This document shows positions 70 through 31,045 of a stretch of 54,422 nt of DNA, in pieces (the first letter of the stretch is position 1; each line of letters starts with the position of its first letter). This DNA is from Clostridia bacterium (GTDB taxonomy: Bacteria > Bacillota > Clostridia > Christensenellales > Aristaeellaceae). The translations under genes were made by a program, and so were the position numbers. The notes under the pieces were generated by a model. The model did no database searches. It was not told the DNA's origin and saw only the letters and a program-made list of their open reading frames with translations. The stretch covers positions 1 through 54,422 of the forward strand of contig JAFZPV010000027.1 in the NCBI GenBank assembly GCA_017552535.1, in the 5' to 3' direction.

Positions 70-141
<72 letters not shown>

Positions 142-22363: not shown

Positions 22364-23461
22364 ATGTACGAATCCGAGGTTTTTCGCCAGGAGATCACGG
22401 CGCTCAAGGATATGCTCAGGGACACGGAAAAGTCGCTGAACATCGAGGGCCTCAAGGAGCAGCTGGTGGAGTATCAGGAGGATATGGCCTCCGAGGGCTT
22501 CTGGGACGACGTGGAGCGCGCGCAGAAGGTGAACAAGCAGATGCGCTCCTGCGAAAACCGCATCAACCATTACAAGTCCCTGTGCTCGCGCCTGGACGAC
22601 GCCGAGGTCATGCTGGAGCTCAGCGAGGAAGAGGGCGGCGACGAGATGGCCGGCGAGATCGGCCAGGAGCTCAAAAAGCTGCGGGAAGAAATGGAGTCCT
22701 TAAAGCTCACCACGCTTCTGACAGGGCAGTACGACAACTGCGACTGCATCCTGTCCCTGCACGCCGGCGCGGGCGGAACGGAGGCCCAGGACTGGACGCA
22801 GATGCTCTACCGCATGTACACGCGCTTCGGCGAGCGCATGGGCTTTACCGTGCGGGAGCTGGACATGCTGGACGGCGACGAGGCCGGCGTAAAGAGCGTC
22901 ACCTGGGAAGTGTCCGGCGACTACGCCTACGGCTTTATGAAGAGCGAAAGGGGCGTGCACCGGCTGGTGCGCATCTCTCCCTTTGACGCAGCCGCGAGAA
23001 GGCACACCTCCTTCGCGTCCCTGGACGTGGCTCCGGTCATAGAAGACGAGGGCGAGATCCCCATCGAGCCGGACGATCTGCGCATCGACACCTACCGCGC
23101 CTCCGGCAAGGGCGGCCAGCACGTAAACCGCACGGACTCCGCCGTGCGCATCACCCACCTGCCTACGGGCATCGTGGTGCAGTGCCAGAACGAGCGCAGC
23201 CAGATCCAGAACAAGGAGACCTGCTTCCGCATGCTGCGCGCCCGCCTGGCCGAACTGCAGGAACAGAAGCGCCAGGAGCTGATGGGCGAGGTGAAGGGCG
23301 AGCTCAAAAAGATCGAATGGGGCAGCCAGATCCGCTCCTACGTTTTCCAGCCCTACACCATGGTGAAGGATCATCGCACGGGCTACGAGATGGGCAACAT
23401 CGACGACGTGATGGACGGCGACCTGGAAGGCTTCGTTACGGCCTACCTGCAAAAGCTGTAA
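22364..23461 (+). CDS. prfB: Peptide chain release factor 2
   Basis: RF2 terminates translation at UGA and UAA. It carries the SPF anticodon-like tripeptide in [17 protein letters not shown] (near 205) and the catalytic GGQ in [10 protein letters not shown] (248-250 region). Length 365 is standard. GGAGG precedes the ATG. The frame is continuous from the first codon through the N-terminal helix, so the widespread programmed +1 frameshift at an early UGA is absent here. It is followed by tsaD after 3 bases. Confidence 0.96.
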
Positions 23462-23464
23462 GGC

Positions 23465-24532
23465 ATGATGACGTATTTGGAACGCGCGCGCGAGAAAGCG
23501 CGCGCTTTGATCGAAAAAGGCAGCGCAACCCTGCTGGCCGTGGAATCCAGCTGCGACGAGACCGCCGTGGCCGTGGTAAAAGATGGCCGCCAGGTGCTGG
23601 CAAACGAGATATCCTCCCAGGTGGACATCCACGCCCTGTACGGCGGCGTGGTACCGGAGATCGCCTCCCGCATGCACGTGGAGGCGCTGTCGCCCCTGTA
23701 CGAGCGGGCGCTGGCGGCGTCCGGCCTCGGGGCGCGGGATATCGACGCCGTGGCGGTCACCTTCGGCCCGGGCCTGGTGGGCGCGCTGCTCACGGGCGTG
23801 AGCTTCGCCAAGGCGCTGGCCTACGGGCTGGATGTTCCGCTGGTGGCGGTCAACCACATCGAAGGCCACGTGAGCGCGAACTTTATCGCGGCCCCTTCGC
23901 TTGAGCCGCCCTTCGTGTGCCTTGTGGCGTCCGGCGGCCACAGCCACATCGTGAACGTCACCCGCTACGGCTGTTACGAGCTTCTGGGCCGCACCGCGGA
24001 CGACGCCGCGGGGGAAGCCTTCGACAAGGTGGCCCGCGTGCTGGAGATACCCTATCCCGGCGGCCCGCTGCTGGACAAGCTGGCGGAGACGGGGGACGAA
24101 AAGCGCTACCGCTTCCCGCGCATGCACACGGAGGGCAAGTACGATTATTCCTTCAGCGGCCTGAAGACCGCCGTGATCAACCAGGCCCACACCATACGCC
24201 AGAACGGCGGCGAGATCGAGGCGGCTGACTGGGCGGCTTCCTTCCGCCGCGCTGTGGTGGACGCGCTTCTGGACAAGGCGCTGCTTGCCGCGCGGGATAC
24301 GGGCGCGGAGCGCTTCGCCCTGGCGGGCGGCGTGGCGTCCAACCGGCTGCTCCGGCGGGAGACCCTGCGCCGGGGAACGGAAATGGGCCTAAAGGTATTC
24401 ATGCCGCCTGCGTCCCTATGCACGGACAACGCCGCCATGATCGGCGCCGCAGGCTTTTACCGCCTGATGAACGGCGAACTGGCGGGCCTGGACCTGAACG
24501 CCCAGCCCTCGGTGAGACTGATAGAAGAGTAG
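23465..24532 (+). CDS. tsaD: tRNA threonylcarbamoyladenosine synthase TsaD
   Basis: The ASKHA-fold subunit that transfers threonylcarbamoyl to A37 of ANN-decoding tRNAs (including tRNA-Asn, at the start of this window). The family start LAVESSCDETAVAVV is preceded by a 23-residue helical extension. The metal-binding HxxxH is NHIEGH near 128-133. SGGHSHIV, and ALAGGVASNRLLR with the later DNAAMIG block, are present. 355 residues. Adjacent ATGs at 23465 and 23468 are both possible starts. The extension encodes a long CG-alternating hairpin (23484-23505). The partners TsaB and TsaE are not in the window. Confidence 0.95.
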   Translation: MMTYLERAREKARALIEKGSATLLAVESSCDETAVAVVKDGRQVLANEISSQVDIHALYGGVVPEIASRMHVEALSPLYERALAASGLGARDIDAVAVTFGPGLVGALLTGVSFAKALAYGLDVPLVAVNHIEGHVSANFIAAPSLEPPFVCLVASGGHSHIVNVTRYGCYELLGRTADDAAGEAFDKVARVLEIPYPGGPLLDKLAETGDEKRYRFPRMHTEGKYDYSFSGLKTAVINQAHTIRQNGGEIEAADWAASFRRAVVDALLDKALLAARDTGAERFALAGGVASNRLLRRETLRRGTEMGLKVFMPPASLCTDNAAMIGAAGFYRLMNGELAGLDLNAQPSVRLIEE

Positions 24533-24572
24533 AGCGGTTCCTGTAAGCTGCGCCTGATGCATCCAAAGAGAA

Positions 24573-24600
24573 AGCCGGAGAGGTTGAAGCCCCTCCGGCT
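24573..24600 (+). terminator. Hairpin after tsaD
   Basis: An 11-bp stem with one mismatch, AGCCGGAGAGG (24573-24583) / CCCCTCCGGCT (24590-24600), has a 6-base loop and lies 40 bp past the tsaD stop. No T-tract follows, so termination may be factor-dependent. Confidence 0.5.
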
Positions 24601-24774
24601 CTCCGTGTAGAGCCAAGTTGTTTCGCAAAGCCTGAACTTTCCGCGTTTTTTTGATGAAGCGACTGTGTCTGTTGTGCGACTTTACGGAAGCAACAAACCA
24701 CTGTCTGTAATACTTTTGTAATGATCAAGTCATCGTCTGTGTTTGTGCGAAAAAACCGACTGTGTTTTGAAAAT
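24601..24774. other. AT-richer non-coding stretch with short direct repeats
   Basis: This is clearly less GC-rich than the rest of the window. CGACTGTGT occurs at 24660-24668 and 24757-24765, and related blocks TCTGTTGTGCGA (24668-24679) and GTTTGTGCGA (24741-24750) lie between. No convincing ORF is present. It immediately precedes the DnaA boxes and could be an unwinding or regulatory region. Confidence 0.5.
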
Positions 24775-24867
24775 TGTGGATATGTTGACAAGTTATCCAC
24801 AATTCTGTGGATAAACCCGGCTGATACGGTGTATAAGCCGAACTGGCGCGCTTGAACTTGTGGATAA
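24775..24867. promoter_or_regulatory. DnaA-box cluster (four boxes)
   Basis: Three perfect matches to the DnaA box TTATCCACA were found: 24793-24801 (+), 24806-24814 (-) and 24859-24867 (-). A fourth site with one mismatch is at 24775-24783 (-, ATATCCACA). The two central boxes face each other with a 4-base gap. The site sits beside an AT-rich stretch, but no dnaA or dnaN is near and gene direction does not change across it. That fits a DnaA-binding regulatory or titration cluster better than oriC, though an origin cannot be excluded from sequence alone. Confidence 0.75.
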
Positions 24868-24906
24868 CTTTTTGCACAGGAAAAGGCAGCGCCGGATTAA
24901 AAAAGC

Positions 24907-25011
24907 ACCCGTGTTACGGGTCTGAAATCTTTGTTGCAGAACTGCAACGAACCGCTTCCGCCGGCCTGCCGGGACGGATTGCAAACGAAGGGTATATATT
25001 GTATGAACAAT
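24907..25011. promoter_or_regulatory. Three short palindromes upstream of rhaB
   Basis: Three perfect inverted repeats occur in series: ACCCGT-GTT-ACGGGT (24907-24921), GTTGCAG-AA-CTGCAAC (24933-24948) and ATTGT-ATGA-ACAAT (24998-25011). The spacing and lack of T-tracts suggest protein-binding sites rather than terminators. No bound regulator can be named. Confidence 0.45.
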
Positions 25012-25023
25012 TGCCTTTCGCGC

Positions 25024-25052
25024 TTGCAAAATGGCCGGATTCGGATTACAAT
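25024..25052 (+). promoter_or_regulatory. Promoter for rhaB
   Basis: TTGCAA (25024-25029), 17 bp, TACAAT (25047-25052). The predicted start near 25059 leaves about 40 bases of leader, most of it occupied by a palindrome. Confidence 0.65.
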
Positions 25053-25076
25053 GTATGCAGGAGACCCCTGCATACA
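25052..25076. promoter_or_regulatory. Palindromic operator at the rhaB start site
   Basis: A perfect 10-bp inverted repeat TGTATGCAGG (25052-25061) / CCTGCATACA (25067-25076) has a 5-base centre. It begins at the last base of the -10 element and covers the expected transcript start, the classic position of a repressor operator. It could also form an RNA hairpin at the 5' end of the mRNA. Confidence 0.6.
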
Positions 25077-25098
25077 ATCTGATCTCGGAGGGATGTAC

Positions 25099-26625
25099 AT
25101 GGCACAAAACGTTCGCTGCTATCTGGGTTTTGACTTCGGCGCTTCCAGCGGCCGCGCGATCCTGGGCCGTCTGTCCACGGACGGGAAGAAGGTACTTGAA
25201 ATAGAGGAGATCCACCGCTTCCCCAACGAAGCCGTGCACACGGGCCGCTTCCTGCAGTGGGAGACAGAGCGGCTGTTCGGCGAAATGAAGACCGCCATCT
25301 GCAAGGCGGCCGATATGGGCGTGCACATCGATTCCATCGGCATAGACACCTGGGGCGTGGATTTCGGCATCGTGGACGGGCAGGGCAAACTTGTGTACCG
25401 CCCCGTGGCCTACCGCGACGAGCGCACCAACGGCCTCATGGAGGAAGCCTTCAAGGTGATGCCCAAGGAGGAGATCTTCCGCAACACGGGCCTGGCCTTC
25501 ATGCAGTTCAATACCCTGTACCAGCTGATCGCCATGCAGCGCGACCCCGAGGCCGCCGCGTTTTTGAAGGAAGGCAACACGCTTCTGTTCATGCCCGACC
25601 TGTTCGAGCACTACCTGACGGGCGAGGTGGGCACGGAGTACACCATCGCCTCCACCAGCCAGCTGATCGATCCCCATACCCGTACCTGGGCAAAGCCCGT
25701 GCTGGACGCCTTCGGCATACCGGAAACGCTGTTTGCCCCGCTTCAGCAGCCCGGCACGCGTCGCGGCCTGCTCAGGCGCGACATCTGCCCAAGCCTGGAT
25801 TACGACATCCCGGTCATCGCCGTGGCGTCCCACGACACGGCATCCGCCGTGGCCGCTGTGCCCGCGCGCAGGGGAGAGAGCTTCGCCTACATTTCCAGCG
25901 GCACCTGGTCGCTGATGGGCGTGGGGACCCTGGACCCCGTGTGCACCAAAGCGGTGATGGACGCCAACTTTACCAACGAGGGCGGCCTGGACGGCACCAC
26001 GCGCATGCTCAAAAACATCATGGGCCTGTGGATCATACAGGAATGCCGCAAGCAGTTCAACGAGGAGCGCGCCGGCAAGGGCCTGGAGCCTTTGTCCTTC
26101 GCGGATATCGTGAATGAAGTGCAGGCGGTAAAGCAGCCTGCACCCGACGTGATCGACGTGGACGACGACCTTTTCTTCGCGCCCGACGGCATGGTGGACC
26201 GCATCTGCGCCTACGTGAAGGCGCACGGCGGCGACATATCCGAGGAAGACCGCGTGGGCAAGGTGGCGGATGTAGTGTACCGTTCCCTGGCCCTCAAATA
26301 CCGCTGGGCCGTGGAGTGCATAGAGGAGATCACCGGCAAAAAGATAGACGTACTGTACATTGTGGGCGGCGGCGGCAAAAACGAGCTGCTCAACCGCTAT
26401 ACCGCGCAGGCCCTCAGGCGCCCCGTGCGCATAGGAGCTGGCGAGGGCACGGTGATCGGAAACCTCCTGGTACAGGCGATGAGCCTGGGCGACGTGAAGG
26501 ACCTGTGGGAGCTCAGGGGCATCGTGCGCGATTCCTTCGGTGACAGGGAATATGGATGGGACCCCGCCCAGGACGATAAATGGGAAAAGGACTATCAGAA
26601 GCTCAGGGAGCTCATGAAGGCATGA
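25099..26625 (+). CDS. rhaB: Rhamnulokinase
   Basis: A FGGY-family sugar kinase, most like RhaB, which phosphorylates L-rhamnulose. The N-terminal phosphate loop DFGASSGRAI (about 10-19) is the RhaB form. Further matches are DTWGVDFGIVD (about 84), ASHDTASAVAAVP (catalytic region, near 245), SSGTWSLMG and the C-terminal VGGGGKNELLNR. 508 residues. The ATG at 25099 is chosen for GGAGGG 6 bases upstream; an ATG at 25093 abuts the RBS. No rhamnose isomerase, aldolase or transporter is near, and a related ketose or fuculose substrate remains possible. The stop overlaps mrnC (ATGA). Confidence 0.88.
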   Translation: MAQNVRCYLGFDFGASSGRAILGRLSTDGKKVLEIEEIHRFPNEAVHTGRFLQWETERLFGEMKTAICKAADMGVHIDSIGIDTWGVDFGIVDGQGKLVYRPVAYRDERTNGLMEEAFKVMPKEEIFRNTGLAFMQFNTLYQLIAMQRDPEAAAFLKEGNTLLFMPDLFEHYLTGEVGTEYTIASTSQLIDPHTRTWAKPVLDAFGIPETLFAPLQQPGTRRGLLRRDICPSLDYDIPVIAVASHDTASAVAAVPARRGESFAYISSGTWSLMGVGTLDPVCTKAVMDANFTNEGGLDGTTRMLKNIMGLWIIQECRKQFNEERAGKGLEPLSFADIVNEVQAVKQPAPDVIDVDDDLFFAPDGMVDRICAYVKAHGGDISEEDRVGKVADVVYRSLALKYRWAVECIEEITGKKIDVLYIVGGGGKNELLNRYTAQALRRPVRIGAGEGTVIGNLLVQAMSLGDVKDLWELRGIVRDSFGDREYGWDPAQDDKWEKDYQKLRELMKA

Positions 26626-27026
26626 CGGACGCACCCGCAAGCAGCGTTTTTCCCCATGGGCAGATGCCGGGTTCCCTGGAACTGGCCTTTGTGGGGGACA
26701 GCGTGTACGATCTGTACGTGCGCTCCAGGCTGGTAAGAAAGGGCGGCAGGGTGAACGCGCTCAACCGCGCCGCGGTGGCGCTGGTAAACGCCCACGCCCA
26801 GTGCGAGAGCTTAAAGCGCATCATGCCCGAACTCACGCCGGAGGAAGCGGCTGTGGTGAAGCGTGCCCGCAACGCGAAGCAGACCGCCACCAAAAACGCC
26901 GATCCCGCCGAATATCCTTACGCCACCGCCCTGGAGGCGCTGGTCGGCTGGCTGTACCTTACAAAACAACTGGAGCGCATGGAGCGCCTTCTGGCCCTTG
27001 CGACTGAGATGGAAGGAATGAACTGA
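26622..27026 (+). CDS. mrnC: Mini-ribonuclease 3
   Basis: Mini-III is an RNase III-like dimer without the double-strand-binding domain that matures 23S rRNA ends. The catalytic block LAFVGDSVYDLYVR lies near 21-34, with ARNAKQTATKNADPAEYPYATALEALVGWLYL in family order. 134 residues is standard. It starts within the rhaB stop (ATGA) and its stop overlaps rlmB (TGATG). mrnC-rlmB-sigH is a conserved Clostridia order; the sugar kinase in front is the odd member. Confidence 0.92.
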   Translation: MTDAPASSVFPHGQMPGSLELAFVGDSVYDLYVRSRLVRKGGRVNALNRAAVALVNAHAQCESLKRIMPELTPEEAAVVKRARNAKQTATKNADPAEYPYATALEALVGWLYLTKQLERMERLLALATEMEGMN

Positions 27027-27919
27027 TGCCTTTCGACGATACGCCCAAAATGCCGTACCACGGCAATCATAACGGCAAGCGCCCGGACAGCTGGACGGGC
27101 ACGAACCAGCGCAACTACAAGGACCCCAAGCGCCGGGCGGACATGGCCCGCCGCGAAAGGGCGCCGCTTCCGTATACCGACCAGCCCCGGGAACTGCCCG
27201 AAAACCTGCTGGTGGGCCGCAACCCCATCCGCGAGGCCCTGCGGGCGGGCCGCCCCATGGAAAAGCTGCTGGCGATGAAGGGCGATCTGTCCTCCAGCGC
27301 CCGGGAGATCATCCGCATGGCGCGGGACGCGGGCGTGGTGGTGCAGGAGGTGGACAAAAGCCGCCTGGACCAGGTGTACCCCAACCACCAGGGCCTGCTC
27401 GCCTACGTGTCCAGCGCCGAATACGCCTCGGTGGACGATATCTTCGCCTGCGCCGGGGAAAGGGGCGAAGACCCGTTCATCGTAGTGCTGGACGGCGTCA
27501 CCGATCCCCACAACCTGGGCGCCATTATCCGCAGCGCGGATTGCGCGGGCGCCCACGGCGTGATCATTCCCGAACGCCGCAGCGCCGGGCTCAACCCCGC
27601 CTGCGTGAAGGCGGCCGCCGGCGCGGTGGAGTACATGCGCGTGGCGCGGGTCACCAACCTGCCAAGGACCCTGGACGAACTGAAGGAAAAAGGCGTGTGG
27701 CTGTACGCCTCCGATATGGACGGCGAGAGCGTGTACGAGGCGGACAAATCAGGCCCTGCTGCCATCGTGATCGGCGCGGAGGGCGAGGGCGTGAGCCGCC
27801 TGGTGCTGGAAAAGTGCGACAAGACCCTGTCGATCCCCATGCGGGGGCACGTGGGTTCGCTGAACGCGTCCGTGGCGGCGGGCATCATGCTGTTCGAGTT
27901 CGCCCGGGCCAGGCGCTGA
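27026..27919 (+). CDS. rlmB: 23S rRNA 2'-O-methyltransferase RlmB
   Basis: A SPOUT-class TrmH/SpoU methyltransferase, expected to methylate G2251 of 23S rRNA. Residues 1-60 are a basic, low-complexity extension. An L30e-like substrate-binding domain (about 63-140) follows. The knot domain shows motif 1 NLGAIIRSADCAGAHGVI, motif 2 IGAEGEGVS and motif 3 IPMRGHVGSLNASVAAGI. 297 residues. The start overlaps mrnC by one base. Confidence 0.93.
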   Translation: MPFDDTPKMPYHGNHNGKRPDSWTGTNQRNYKDPKRRADMARRERAPLPYTDQPRELPENLLVGRNPIREALRAGRPMEKLLAMKGDLSSSAREIIRMARDAGVVVQEVDKSRLDQVYPNHQGLLAYVSSAEYASVDDIFACAGERGEDPFIVVLDGVTDPHNLGAIIRSADCAGAHGVIIPERRSAGLNPACVKAAAGAVEYMRVARVTNLPRTLDELKEKGVWLYASDMDGESVYEADKSGPAAIVIGAEGEGVSRLVLEKCDKTLSIPMRGHVGSLNASVAAGIMLFEFARARR

Positions 27920-27928
27920 GGCAGAGCG

Positions 27929-28543
27929 ATGGAGAGATTCGAGCTTTATACCGACGAGGCCATCGTGGCCGAAGCCCAGGGCGGAGACAGCGACGCCATG
28001 GACTATATCCTCGTCAAATTCAAAAACCTCGTACGGGCGCGGGCGCACAGCTATTTCCTCGTGGGCGCTGACCACGAGGACATCGTGCAGGAAGGCATGA
28101 TCGGCCTGTACAAGGCGGTCCGGGACTACCGTGCCGACCGCAACGCCTCCTTCAAGGCCTTCGCGGACCTGTGCGTCACCCGGCAGATCATCACCGCCGT
28201 AAAGACTGCCACGCGCCAGAAGCATATCCCGCTCAACTACTACATCTCCCTGAACCGCCCCGCCTACGACGGCGACAGCGACCGCACCCTCATGGAGGCG
28301 CTTAAGGAAGACGACCGCTCCAACCCCGAGGCGCTTCTGATCACCCGGGAGGACATCAGCGCCGTAAAGGAGCGCATGGACACACTGCTTTCGCCCCTGG
28401 AGATGGACGCGCTCACAGGATATCTGCAGGGCAAGAGCTATCAGGAGATCAGCGACAAGTACGGCCACCATGTGAAGAGCATCGACAATGCCCTGCAGAG
28501 GGTAAAGAAAAAGCTGATGAAATACATGGAGAGCCGAAAGTGA
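27929..28543 (+). CDS. sigH: RNA polymerase sigma-H factor
   Basis: A sigma-70 family factor of the SigH/Spo0H type, which turns on early sporulation and post-exponential genes. Region 2 reads DHEDIVQEGMIGLYKAVRDY (about 50-70), and region 4 has the helix-turn-helix SYQEISDKYGHHVKSIDNALQR (about 170-190). 204 residues. It lies 9 bases after rlmB, the usual Clostridia position. Its presence is the best single indication that the organism belongs to an endospore-forming lineage, though the ability to sporulate is not shown. Confidence 0.93.
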   Translation: MERFELYTDEAIVAEAQGGDSDAMDYILVKFKNLVRARAHSYFLVGADHEDIVQEGMIGLYKAVRDYRADRNASFKAFADLCVTRQIITAVKTATRQKHIPLNYYISLNRPAYDGDSDRTLMEALKEDDRSNPEALLITREDISAVKERMDTLLSPLEMDALTGYLQGKSYQEISDKYGHHVKSIDNALQRVKKKLMKYMESRK

Positions 28544-28563: not shown

Positions 28564-28592
28564 TTGCGCGCCGACCTGTGCTGTGCTATCAT
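28564..28592 (+). promoter_or_regulatory. Promoter for the dnaD-trkH operon
   Basis: TTGCGC (28564-28569), 17 bp, TATCAT (28587-28592), about 35 bp before the dnaD start. Confidence 0.6.
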
Positions 28593-28627
28593 ACACGCAT
28601 ACCGATAAGAAACGGAGAATCGCGAAC

Positions 28628-30061
28628 ATGCCGTTTTGCGCATACGCCGAAGGCAGCGCCATGATGGGCGCCACCGCGGTGAGCAACCTGTTCATGCTGG
28701 AGTATATGCCGTCCGCCCCGGGCGACTATGTGAAGGTATACTTATACGCGCTTTTGCTGTGCCGCTGCCCGGAGCTGTGTTCCGGCGTGGACGCGATGGC
28801 GGAGGCCCTCAACCTGGACGCGGAGACCGTGCTGAGCGCCTTCAGCTACTGGGAGCGCGAGGGCATCGCTGAGCGCCTGAGCGACAATCCCCCCACCTAC
28901 AGCATCCTGCCCGTGCAGGGCGCGCTGCCCGCCAGGCAGGAGGATGACGACGTCTACACGAACCGCAGCTACAACAAGCAGCTGCAGGCGCTGATGCCCC
29001 GCACGGTGCTGGAAGGGCACGAACTGGCCATGGCCAGCGACTGGCTGGACGTAATGCATCTCGCCCCGGAGACTGTACTGTTCATGGTCAAGCGGGACGT
29101 GGAAAAGCGGGGCGGCAAGCTGCCCACCGCGCGCACCATGTTCAAGCACTTGAACGAGACCGCCCTGGAATGGGCCGGGGCCGGCGTAACGGACCTGAAA
29201 AGCGCCGAAGCGTATCTGGCGCGCACCGGCGTATACAGCCAGACCGCCCAGGCCATCGTAAAGCGCTTCGGCCTGAGAAGGGCGCCCAGCCTGGACGAGA
29301 TCGAACTGGTCAAAAAGTGGATCGACGAGTGGAAGCTGGACGAAGGCGCCGTGATGGCGGCCTGCGCCGAGACCGTGAAGGGCACGAACCCCTCCTTCGG
29401 CTATCTGGACAGCGTGCTTTCTTCCCGCGTGAACGAGACGGACGAGCCCTTCCGGCGGGTAAAAACGCTGCTGGAGCACCTGGGCGTATCCGCCCGGCCT
29501 ACGCCGGAGCAGATCGAGTCCCTGGGACGTTTTCTGGACATGGGCTTTGAGTTCGGCGCCATCGAGCAGGCAGCCATCCAGTGCGGCGAAAACAACCAGC
29601 GCCGCTTTGAGGACGTGGAAAAGCGCCTGGCCAAATGGAAAGAGGCGGGCGCCTTCACCCTGGAGGAAGTTCAGGAGCAGCGGCGCCAGCAAAAGTATTA
29701 TTCCGGCATCGTGACGGAGCTGTTTGAGCTGGCGGGCGTGGAGAAGCGCGTCACGGCCAGCGACATCCGCTTCGCCAAAGTGTGGACCGCGCTGATCGAG
29801 CTGGACGCCGTGCGCTTTGCCGCGGAGTGCGCCCGGGGCAGCGACAACCCCGTAAAGTACATAAACCGCCTTGTGCAGATCTGGAGCGCCCAGGGGATCA
29901 CCACCCAGGAAAAGGCCAGGGAGGCCCACGCGGCCTTCGAGGCCGCCGTGCGCAAGGGCGGGAAGGACAAAAAGCCGATGGACGAACGCGTCCTGACGGA
30001 AGAGGATTTCGAGACCGGATACTATGCGGATATCATGAACCGCAAAAGGGCGGGTGAGTAA
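28628..30061 (+). CDS. DnaD-domain replication initiation protein
   Basis: A 477-residue DnaD/DnaB-like primosome protein. An N-terminal winged-helix-like part (about 1-110) is followed by what look like three tandem DnaD-type helical modules, at about 130-190, 215-275 and 290-355, and a fourth weaker one near 370-425. Most DnaD proteins have one such module, so this is long. It probably loads the replicative helicase at origins and stalled forks. The ATG at 28628 follows the promoter and a GGAG; an in-frame upstream start at 28583 would overlap the promoter. The helicase loader gene begins at the next base after its stop. Confidence 0.85.
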   Translation: MPFCAYAEGSAMMGATAVSNLFMLEYMPSAPGDYVKVYLYALLLCRCPELCSGVDAMAEALNLDAETVLSAFSYWEREGIAERLSDNPPTYSILPVQGALPARQEDDDVYTNRSYNKQLQALMPRTVLEGHELAMASDWLDVMHLAPETVLFMVKRDVEKRGGKLPTARTMFKHLNETALEWAGAGVTDLKSAEAYLARTGVYSQTAQAIVKRFGLRRAPSLDEIELVKKWIDEWKLDEGAVMAACAETVKGTNPSFGYLDSVLSSRVNETDEPFRRVKTLLEHLGVSARPTPEQIESLGRFLDMGFEFGAIEQAAIQCGENNQRRFEDVEKRLAKWKEAGAFTLEEVQEQRRQQKYYSGIVTELFELAGVEKRVTASDIRFAKVWTALIELDAVRFAAECARGSDNPVKYINRLVQIWSAQGITTQEKAREAHAAFEAAVRKGGKDKKPMDERVLTEEDFETGYYADIMNRKRAGE

Positions 30062-31045
30062 ATGACGCGCGCGGAAGCGATCGCCAGGGCGAATGAATAC
30101 TACGCCCGCAGGCAAAGCGAGATCAACGACGAACTGAGCCGCCGGGAACGGGAGATACGCGACGCCCTGCCCGAGGTCAGGCAGCTGATGGACGAGCGCG
30201 CGGAGCTGCCGGTAAAAAGCATGCGCCTGGCCATGGCGGACCGGCCCAACGCGGCGGCGGTCGCGGCGGAGATGCGCCGGCGGGGGCTGGAACTGAACGC
30301 CGCCATCCGGAAGGCGCTGGCGGAAAAGGGCTACGGGGAAGACTACCTCTCTCCCCGCTATGAATGCGCCGCCTGCCGGGATACCGGATACCTGTCCGGC
30401 CAGGTGCCGGCCCGTATGTGCGCCTGCATGGAAAGGCGTATTTCCGCTCTCATGAGCGAACGCGGGCAGGAAGGCGCTTTCGGGGCGAGCTTTCATATGT
30501 TCGACGAAAGCCGCGTGCCGGACGAACCTGTTCTGGAAGGGCTCACCCAGCGCGCGCTCACGGTGCGCATCCGCCAGGCCTGCGAGGACTACGTGAACAG
30601 CTATCCCGGCACCATCTTGCCCGGGCTGATCCTGAGCGGCCAGCCGGGCCTGGGCAAAACGTTTCTGATGGGCTGTATCCGCACGGGCCTTGAAGAAAAG
30701 GGCGTGTGCGCCGTGTCGCTTGGCTCCTACAAGCTGCTTCAGCGCCTGCGGGCCGTGCATTTTCACGAAGAGGGGGCGGAGGAAGCCTTCGATGAGCTCA
30801 TCCGCTGCCCCGTACTGCTGATCGACGATCTGGGAAGCGAGCCTGTGCTCAAGAACGTGTCGGAAGAATACCTGTGCGTGCTGCTGGACGAGCGCATGCG
30901 GGCGGGGCGGCACACGGTGATCACCACCAACCTGACGCCCCCGCAGATGAAGGAGATCTACTCCGAGCGCGTGGCTTCCCGCCTGTCGGACGTGCGCTTC
31001 TGGGATCATCTGCGCCTGCTGGGAAAGGACCTGCGCCGCACATGA
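30062..31045 (+). CDS. dnaI: DnaI/DnaC-type helicase loader ATPase
   Basis: A 327-residue AAA+ ATPase that delivers the replicative helicase to DNA. The N-terminal half is helical and charged; a Cys cluster follows at 102, 105, 120 and 122 (CAAC...CAC), a likely zinc site. Walker A is GQPGLGKT (about 194-201). Walker B is VLLIDDLGSE (about 257-266), and the sensor region ends HTVITTNLTP. It starts immediately after the dnaD stop, forming the classic Clostridia dnaD-loader pair, and overlaps the next gene (ATGA, 31042-31045). Confidence 0.9.
   Translation: MTRAEAIARANEYYARRQSEINDELSRREREIRDALPEVRQLMDERAELPVKSMRLAMADRPNAAAVAAEMRRRGLELNAAIRKALAEKGYGEDYLSPRYECAACRDTGYLSGQVPARMCACMERRISALMSERGQEGAFGASFHMFDESRVPDEPVLEGLTQRALTVRIRQACEDYVNSYPGTILPGLILSGQPGLGKTFLMGCIRTGLEEKGVCAVSLGSYKLLQRLRAVHFHEEGAEEAFDELIRCPVLLIDDLGSEPVLKNVSEEYLCVLLDERMRAGRHTVITTNLTPPQMKEIYSERVASRLSDVRFWDHLRLLGKDLRRT

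Follow-up and report, generated by a model that had tools for sequence, protein, structure and literature searches.

Why does a tight group of DnaA boxes stand directly behind tsaD, with no dnaA nearby? The question is raised by the window (the whole 54,422-nucleotide stretch of DNA analysed here), in which three perfect TTATCCACA boxes and a fourth with one mismatch occupy 93 bp of the 566-bp gap 3' of tsaD (Table 1). Our preferred answer, held with a probability of about 0.65, is that this is an extra-oriC DnaA-binding array of the DnaA-box-cluster (DBC) kind known from Bacillus subtilis and that, by analogy with those clusters, it would act as a DnaA-sequestering, initiation-timing site.

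A cluster of DnaA boxes between tsaD and a kinase gene

The motif scan reproduced the coordinates, strands and perfect or single-mismatch status of all four boxes described in the first-pass annotation. No other perfect boxes occur in the 54-kb window, and the genome-wide scan that the annotation had called for found 14 in the 2.39-Mb assembly (62 contigs, estimated completeness 76.7%): 3 in the array, 5 around dnaA on contig C44 and 6 standing singly. The judgement that three perfect boxes are unlikely to fall here by chance is borne out by Markov simulation of positions 24533-25099 (model trained on that 567-bp stretch itself, boxes included), in which one perfect box appeared in 63 of 10,000 simulated stretches and two in none. 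The array is thus a cluster in the sense that several DnaA boxes lie close together, outside oriC and above chance.

The gap is bounded by tsaD, presumably the gene also called gcp, and by a rhaB-like gene that starts at 25099 or 25093, behind which stand genes that we take to be mrnC, rlmB and sigH. As first proposed, gene direction does not switch across the site, and a DnaD-like gene and a helicase-loader-like gene lie 4-6 kb downstream. Rfam matched the window at one place only, a tRNA at 70-141, and not at the array. Terminator-like sites in the gap stretch number 2 against a shuffle mean of 0.9, which is not clearly above chance, and the one promoter-like match, weak and 3' of the boxes, is not clearly above shuffles.

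Table 1. Features of the array and its surroundings in the window.
Feature	Position	Strand	Evidence and remarks
prfB (release-factor domains)	22364..23461	+	PF03462, PF00472; belongs to conserved block
tsaD (gcp)	23465..24532	+	PF00814, E 1.9e-89; conserved neighbour 5' of array
Intergenic region containing array	24533..25098	.	Between tsaD and FGGY kinase gene
Terminator-like hairpin, weak	24597..24614	+	Sequence scan; between tsaD and array
Conserved flank AAACCGACT (consensus AAACMGACT)	24753..24761	+	13 bp before box 1; alignments of 6 genus arrays
DnaA box 1	24775..24783	-	ATATCCACA, 1 mismatch; equivalent place kept in congener arrays
DnaA box 2	24793..24801	+	TTATCCACA, perfect
DnaA box 3	24806..24814	-	Perfect; 31 bp (3 helical turns) from box 1
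DnaA box 4	24859..24867	-	Perfect; 84 bp (8 helical turns) from box 1
FGGY carbohydrate kinase, rhaB-like	25099..26625	+	PF02782, PF00370; first gene 3' of array
mrnC (mini-RNase III type)	26580..27026	+	PF00636
rlmB-type SpoU methylase	27026..27919	+	PF00588
Sigma factor, sigma-70 family (sigH-like)	27929..28543	+	PF04542, PF08281
DnaD-like gene (DnaB_2 domain)	28583-30061		Pfam
Helicase-loader-like AAA gene	30062-31045		Pfam

The array lies apart from the chromosomal origin

The array shares its 9-mer and its genome with an origin that is found elsewhere: dnaA and dnaN lie together on contig C44 with two box clusters of their own, in keeping with the claim that no dnaA is near the array. GC skew is positive in all 26 profile rows of the window, with no switch. 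Runs resembling TAGTAGTAG (DnaA-trio-like) are present in the dnaA-dnaN gap, whereas a search of the tsaD gap found none, and they stand beside only 1 of the 79 arrays called after tsaD (see below). None of the three features sought, a skew switch, a DnaA-trio and linked dnaA and dnaN, was found at the array; oriC identity was rejected, and the earlier argument against a simple chromosomal origin holds. The lowest G+C content over 40 bp in the array stretch is 27.5%, at 24765, and the dnaA-dnaN gap has an equal value. In genome G031, a distance of about 1.15 Mb separates tsaD from dnaA, assuming that the 3.97-Mb contig carrying both is circular. Genome G058 carries two dnaA genes (C14 and C234), and a mixture or a duplication is possible there.

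Recurrence of arrays downstream of tsaD

Arrays were called at tsaD where at least 3 boxes (at most 1 mismatch) fell within 800 bp after the stop codon. They follow tsaD at 18/69 loci of the family, 1/27 of the order, 20/61 of the class and 40/59 of the phylum, that is, at 79/216 loci against 1/216 for the reversed motif (0 loci in the family, 1 in the class), and they occur in every G+C band. The loci were chosen automatically by best TsaD scores, with the remainder added by hand, from mostly fragmentary genomes, and 6 of the 216 scanned stretches are shorter than 800 bp. The sample comprises 69 of the 70 family genomes over the cut-off (window genome included, G005 excluded), 27 of 54 order genomes outside the family, 61 of 80 class genomes outside the order and 59 of 60 phylum loci (one of which, G237, belongs to the class); the class and phylum draws are samples of 89 and 61 genomes, respectively.

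Counted as perfect boxes in the 800 bp after tsaD, the family has 41 (69 loci), the class 40 (61 loci) and the phylum 90 (59 loci); 60 letter-permuted 9-mers averaged 0.18, 0.58 and 0.32, respectively, and reached at most 3 in the class, 2 in the phylum and 3 across family, class and phylum. The order outside the family (27 loci) has 2 perfect boxes against a permuted mean of 0.12 and, at the single-mismatch level, 10 boxes against 8 for the control. At the 60 loci with an upstream flank, the 800 bp downstream of tsaD hold 80 perfect boxes and 35 clusters, and the 800 bp upstream hold 1 perfect box and no cluster. Relative to tsaD, 369 of 437 boxes face one way.

These counts suggest that much of the phylum uses a DBC-type site 3' of tsaD. 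The proposal that the tsaD position is conserved in distant Firmicutes stands for families, class and phylum, which lie far above all three controls, but does not extend to the congeners of the window genome (0/5). At least 3 boxes within 800 bp are missing at 51/69 family and 26/27 order loci, a few of which are cut by contig ends; an array at tsaD is therefore not needed everywhere, and since only 1 of 27 order loci has one, the order has largely lost the array at tsaD or never had it. Among the papers listed in literature searches, no title or abstract opening reports phylum-wide conservation or helical phasing of such arrays; the primary B. subtilis papers may remark on conservation.

Arrays away from tsaD in the genus

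Absence of boxes in close relatives had been named in the first-pass annotation as grounds for giving up its proposal, and at tsaD this is literally what the genus displays: a cluster lies in the 1.5 kb after tsaD in 0 of the 5 congeners with that gene, and conservation directly at tsaD within the genus was rejected. G004 has a lone perfect box 756 bp after tsaD, inside an open frame, and G005 a single-mismatch box at 1124; in G002 no true tsaD was found. Elsewhere, when the 6 congeners were scanned for perfect boxes and their clusters inspected, 5 proved to have a related array, which in 4 of them keeps the box spacing of the window, so that in this genus the array looks relocated rather than lost. 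In those four (G001, G002, G003 and G006) boxes fall at 0(-), 18(+), then 31(-) and/or 84-85(-), as in the window; G003 has no box at 31 within one mismatch, and three of the four carry an additional box at 101. The G005 array fits at 18 and 85, its box 1 being degenerate, with a perfect box overlapping at 8, and in G004 (75% complete) other boxes are present and the related array was not found. Over the genus, box 2 starts 18 bp after box 1 in 5/6 arrays, and the AAACMGACT flank precedes box 1 in 6/6.

The neighbours of these arrays differ. The array stands upstream of rhaB-mrnC-rlmB-sigH in G003 and G005 (inverted relative to rhaB in G005) and after sigH in G002, and G001 and G006 have the rhaB-mrnC-rlmB-sigH block without the array, which lies elsewhere. 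The geometry is thus preserved despite changing neighbours. A 141-position sequence model (R1) matches the window genome and four congeners strongly (E at most 8.1e-26), with further matches in G082 (2.9e-11), the congener G005 (2.1e-10), G055 (1.4e-7) and G007 (1.9e-6); 67 of 150 genomes have a match at E at most 0.1, many of them weak. DnaA boxes also occur just upstream of the MraZ gene (PF02381), the start of the division and cell-wall cluster in many bacteria, in G004 (L050:2598-2825) and G002 (L057:3211-3230).

Pattern scans made without reference to tsaD

Two boxes 41-43 bp apart were found in 23 of 80 family genomes (34 sites), and the backward pattern gave 0. In 13 of the 23 the pattern lies at most 1.7 kb after tsaD (the tsaD of G067:C138 being a C-terminal piece), and in 6 more (G009, G058, G051, G033, G021 and G064) on the rhaB or cwlD side of the same interval, with cwlD identified by its Amidase_3 domain (Pfam) and tsaD 3.6 kb from the pattern site in G009. 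One site of G072 is at dnaA; no placement was obtained for its second site, for the sites of G054, G047 and G008, or for the second sites of G031 and G064. The common order is secA-prfB-tsaD, the array, then rhaB or cwlD-mrnC-rlmB-sigH.

Across the class the pattern is present in 87 of 391 genomes; among 30 pattern loci examined, 6 are beside tsaD (families f73, f38 and f68) and 4 beside mrnC (f57), and in the 18 genomes with both a pattern site and a placed tsaD the two are adjacent in 6. In four f57 genomes of one genus (L201-L204), boxes with a 41-bp spacing immediately precede mrnC-rlmB. A three-box pattern gave 95 stretches in a collection of named genomes, 80 of them readable, with dnaA or dnaN in 25 and tsaD alongside in 7 (examples are Candidatus Onthenecus intestinigallinarum, Firmicutes bacterium UBA5500 and Eubacteriales OttesenSCG-928-N13). 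Helix-spaced boxes are therefore also present at the origins of other bacteria, and among the genes asked for, tsaD stands out as the next most frequent neighbour after dnaA/dnaN.

Further sites came to light in other settings. In two Bacilli, Cytobacillus massiliigabonensis (L247:4706-4924) and Bacillaceae bacterium Marseille-Q3522 (L283:7681-7774), a 42-bp-phased array follows secA-prfB, the pair that stands ahead of tsaD in the window. The 4.4-kb plasmid pSOE2 of Candidatus Pantoea edessiphila (L244) has DnaA-like 9-mers every 21 bp, perhaps an origin, and in the Tannerellaceae isolate Ncb351_bin13 three contigs (L234, L260 and L310) carry runs of such 9-mers with a 41-bp period.

Helical phasing of the boxes

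Same-strand spacings in the family are mostly 21, 32, 42, 53-54, 63, 74, 84 and 95-96 bp. At a period of 10.5 bp, Rayleigh R is 0.774 over 111 same-strand pairs from 22 arrays (2 outside the family), 0.769 for the family alone (107 pairs) and 0.765 for its - strand boxes (102 pairs, 20 loci), values that draw on non-independent box pairs and on several arrays from one genus (20 family arrays, 16 genera); when the - strand boxes are jittered by up to 5 bp (2000 trials) the mean R is 0.088 and the largest 0.269. Little phasing is seen between boxes on opposite strands (R 0.247, 52 pairs). Boxes flanking dnaA in 30 family genomes give R 0.361 (41 pairs) against 0.77 in the arrays; strong phasing thus marks the array, not family DnaA boxes generally. 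Beyond the family, phasing at 10.5 bp is weaker (class R 0.575, phylum R 0.336). Head-to-tail triples at 0, 12, 21 occur at 12 class and 7 phylum loci, and at 0, 9, 21 at 1 class and 11 phylum loci.

Proposed function of the array

If the array is a DBC-type site, DnaA, probably in its ATP form, would bind the same-facing boxes on one side of the helix and assemble there cooperatively, and the bound protein would be withdrawn from the pool available to oriC, such that loss of the array should lead to earlier initiation. The array is copied part-way through replication, which would tie this DnaA sink to the replication cycle. We infer titration and initiation timing from B. subtilis. That arrays recur after tsaD phylum-wide, and that their spacing is kept away from tsaD and among changing neighbours, argue that the array itself is under selection. 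Points against the DBC reading are that many genomes, the congeners among them, lack the array at tsaD, that the scan of G004 found it nowhere, and that phasing is weaker in class and phylum than in the family; the 2017 review cited below also counts against it.

An alternative interpretation is that the array is a catalytic site acting on the DnaA nucleotide, like datA (ATP hydrolysis) or DARS (ADP release), and not a passive sink. A defined complex is suggested by the conserved spacing and orientation; in B. subtilis, the gcp/ydiF region has a preference for ATP-DnaA (PMC4447404), which would also be expected of a datA-like site; and the face-to-face pair formed by boxes 2 and 3 is spaced by 13 bp, close to the 14 bp found in the DARS core. 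We nevertheless consider this unlikely, because the core spacing of DARS was recovered in 0/82 arrays, and because a 2026 review gives IHF, datA and DARS as absent from B. subtilis (PMC13220808). The DARS core has three boxes, with box I opposite II and III (reviewed in PMC5742627), spaced +0, -14, -26 in both DARS1 and DARS2 of Escherichia coli (read from MG1655); this spacing is not in the window, and a looser TTWTNCACA motif with one mismatch, which does recover DARS1 and DARS2, also gave 0. DARS geometry was accordingly rejected for the array.

DnaA might instead regulate the transcription of a neighbouring gene here, either tsaD or one on the rhaB/cwlD-mrnC-rlmB-sigH side. DnaA regulates genes at other sites, and the array precedes a rhaB-like or cwlD gene in the window, G003, G005 and several family members, with mrnC, rlmB and sigH behind rhaB/cwlD where seen. 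We regard this as rather improbable: in 5 of 6 congeners the array is not beside tsaD, in 4 with the same spacing, which makes a promoter role unlikely, and the G001 and G006 blocks stand without the array, and the array of G002 follows sigH. In class and phylum, the next open frames vary, with 40 on the tsaD strand and 20 opposite (n = 60; picked mechanically, so that some may not be genes), and six of them encode by Pfam LGT, a 2Fe-2S thioredoxin-like protein, 5-FTHF cyclo-ligase, a Mur ligase, BioY and an acyl-carrier protein. Such differences in kind and direction disfavour a promoter role, as does the single weak promoter-like match on the 3' side of the boxes. A promoter element for a fixed gene was rejected on these varying neighbours and on the congener arrays elsewhere.

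By way of DnaA or proteins that work with it, the array might also help to fold or segregate the chromosome or act in a replication-stress checkpoint. A geometry conserved independently of neighbours would suit such a role, but nothing examined points to segregation proteins, and we hold this to be highly improbable. Least credible of all is a reading in which the array would belong to a second origin of replication or to a former one. Although a box cluster with an AT-rich stretch and with helicase-loading genes 4-6 kb away would fit one, the skew without a switch, the trio-like runs that are present in the dnaA-dnaN gap but not in the tsaD gap and at so few arrays, and the location of dnaA and its clusters on another contig all speak against it; a secondary origin was rejected on the skew and the trio-like runs.

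Returning to the DBC reading, we put forward tentatively, as a bolder form that we think somewhat less probable than its negation, that the site 3' of tsaD is an ancestral locus for the control of DnaA throughout the phylum and the Firmicute functional counterpart of datA, in which head-to-tail boxes on one face would build an ATP-DnaA complex that lowers free ATP-DnaA after fork passage. If this is true, it would be the first conserved cis-acting initiation control site outside oriC in the phylum, kept under selection even when rearrangement parts the array from tsaD. Firmicutes time replication without datA, DARS, Hda and SeqA, and a DnaA array that recurs at the same address in dozens of families offers a defined locus for manipulation; its geometry predicts that half-turn insertions would be harmful and full-turn insertions tolerated.

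Comparison with known systems

Within the window genome, the nearest comparison is oriC itself, which has the same 9-mer; the array differs from it in lacking the skew switch and DnaA-trio-like run and, at the level of the family, in its stronger phasing. With E. coli DARS1 and DARS2 the array shares a non-coding, extra-oriC position, conserved spacing and a face-to-face box pair, and with E. coli datA it would share, by analogy, the role of an extra-oriC box cluster that lowers active DnaA. datA needs IHF, whose site lies between its essential boxes, whereas B. subtilis is without IHF according to the 2026 review (PMC13220808).

The closest likeness is to B. subtilis. The region downstream of gcp and ydiF ranks fourth among the top 20 regions bound by DnaA in vitro, with 10 sites, apparent Kd values of 0.15 µM for ATP-DnaA and 0.33 µM for ADP-DnaA, and 16-fold more DNA recovered with ATP- than with ADP-DnaA at 55 nM (PMC4447404), which confirms the cluster beside gcp that the first-pass annotation had named. 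Reviews state that removal of six B. subtilis clusters together causes early initiation (PMC5295017, PMC13220808); in the 2017 review, clusters with significant initiation roles are described as not identified (PMC5295017), and in that of 2026 it is given as unknown whether B. subtilis has regulators balancing ATP- and ADP-DnaA (PMC13220808). The gcp/ydiF cluster likewise lies outside oriC and has several boxes, which fall after tsaD ends and before the following gene (PMC4447404). The two differ in site number (10 in B. subtilis, 4 in the window array) and in the next gene (ydiF and the rhaB-like gene, respectively), and phasing and one-sided orientation were measured in genomes other than that of B. 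subtilis. If the tsaD site is indeed ancestral, the B. subtilis gcp cluster would be seen no longer as one scattered site among six but as a representative of an old element that is widespread.
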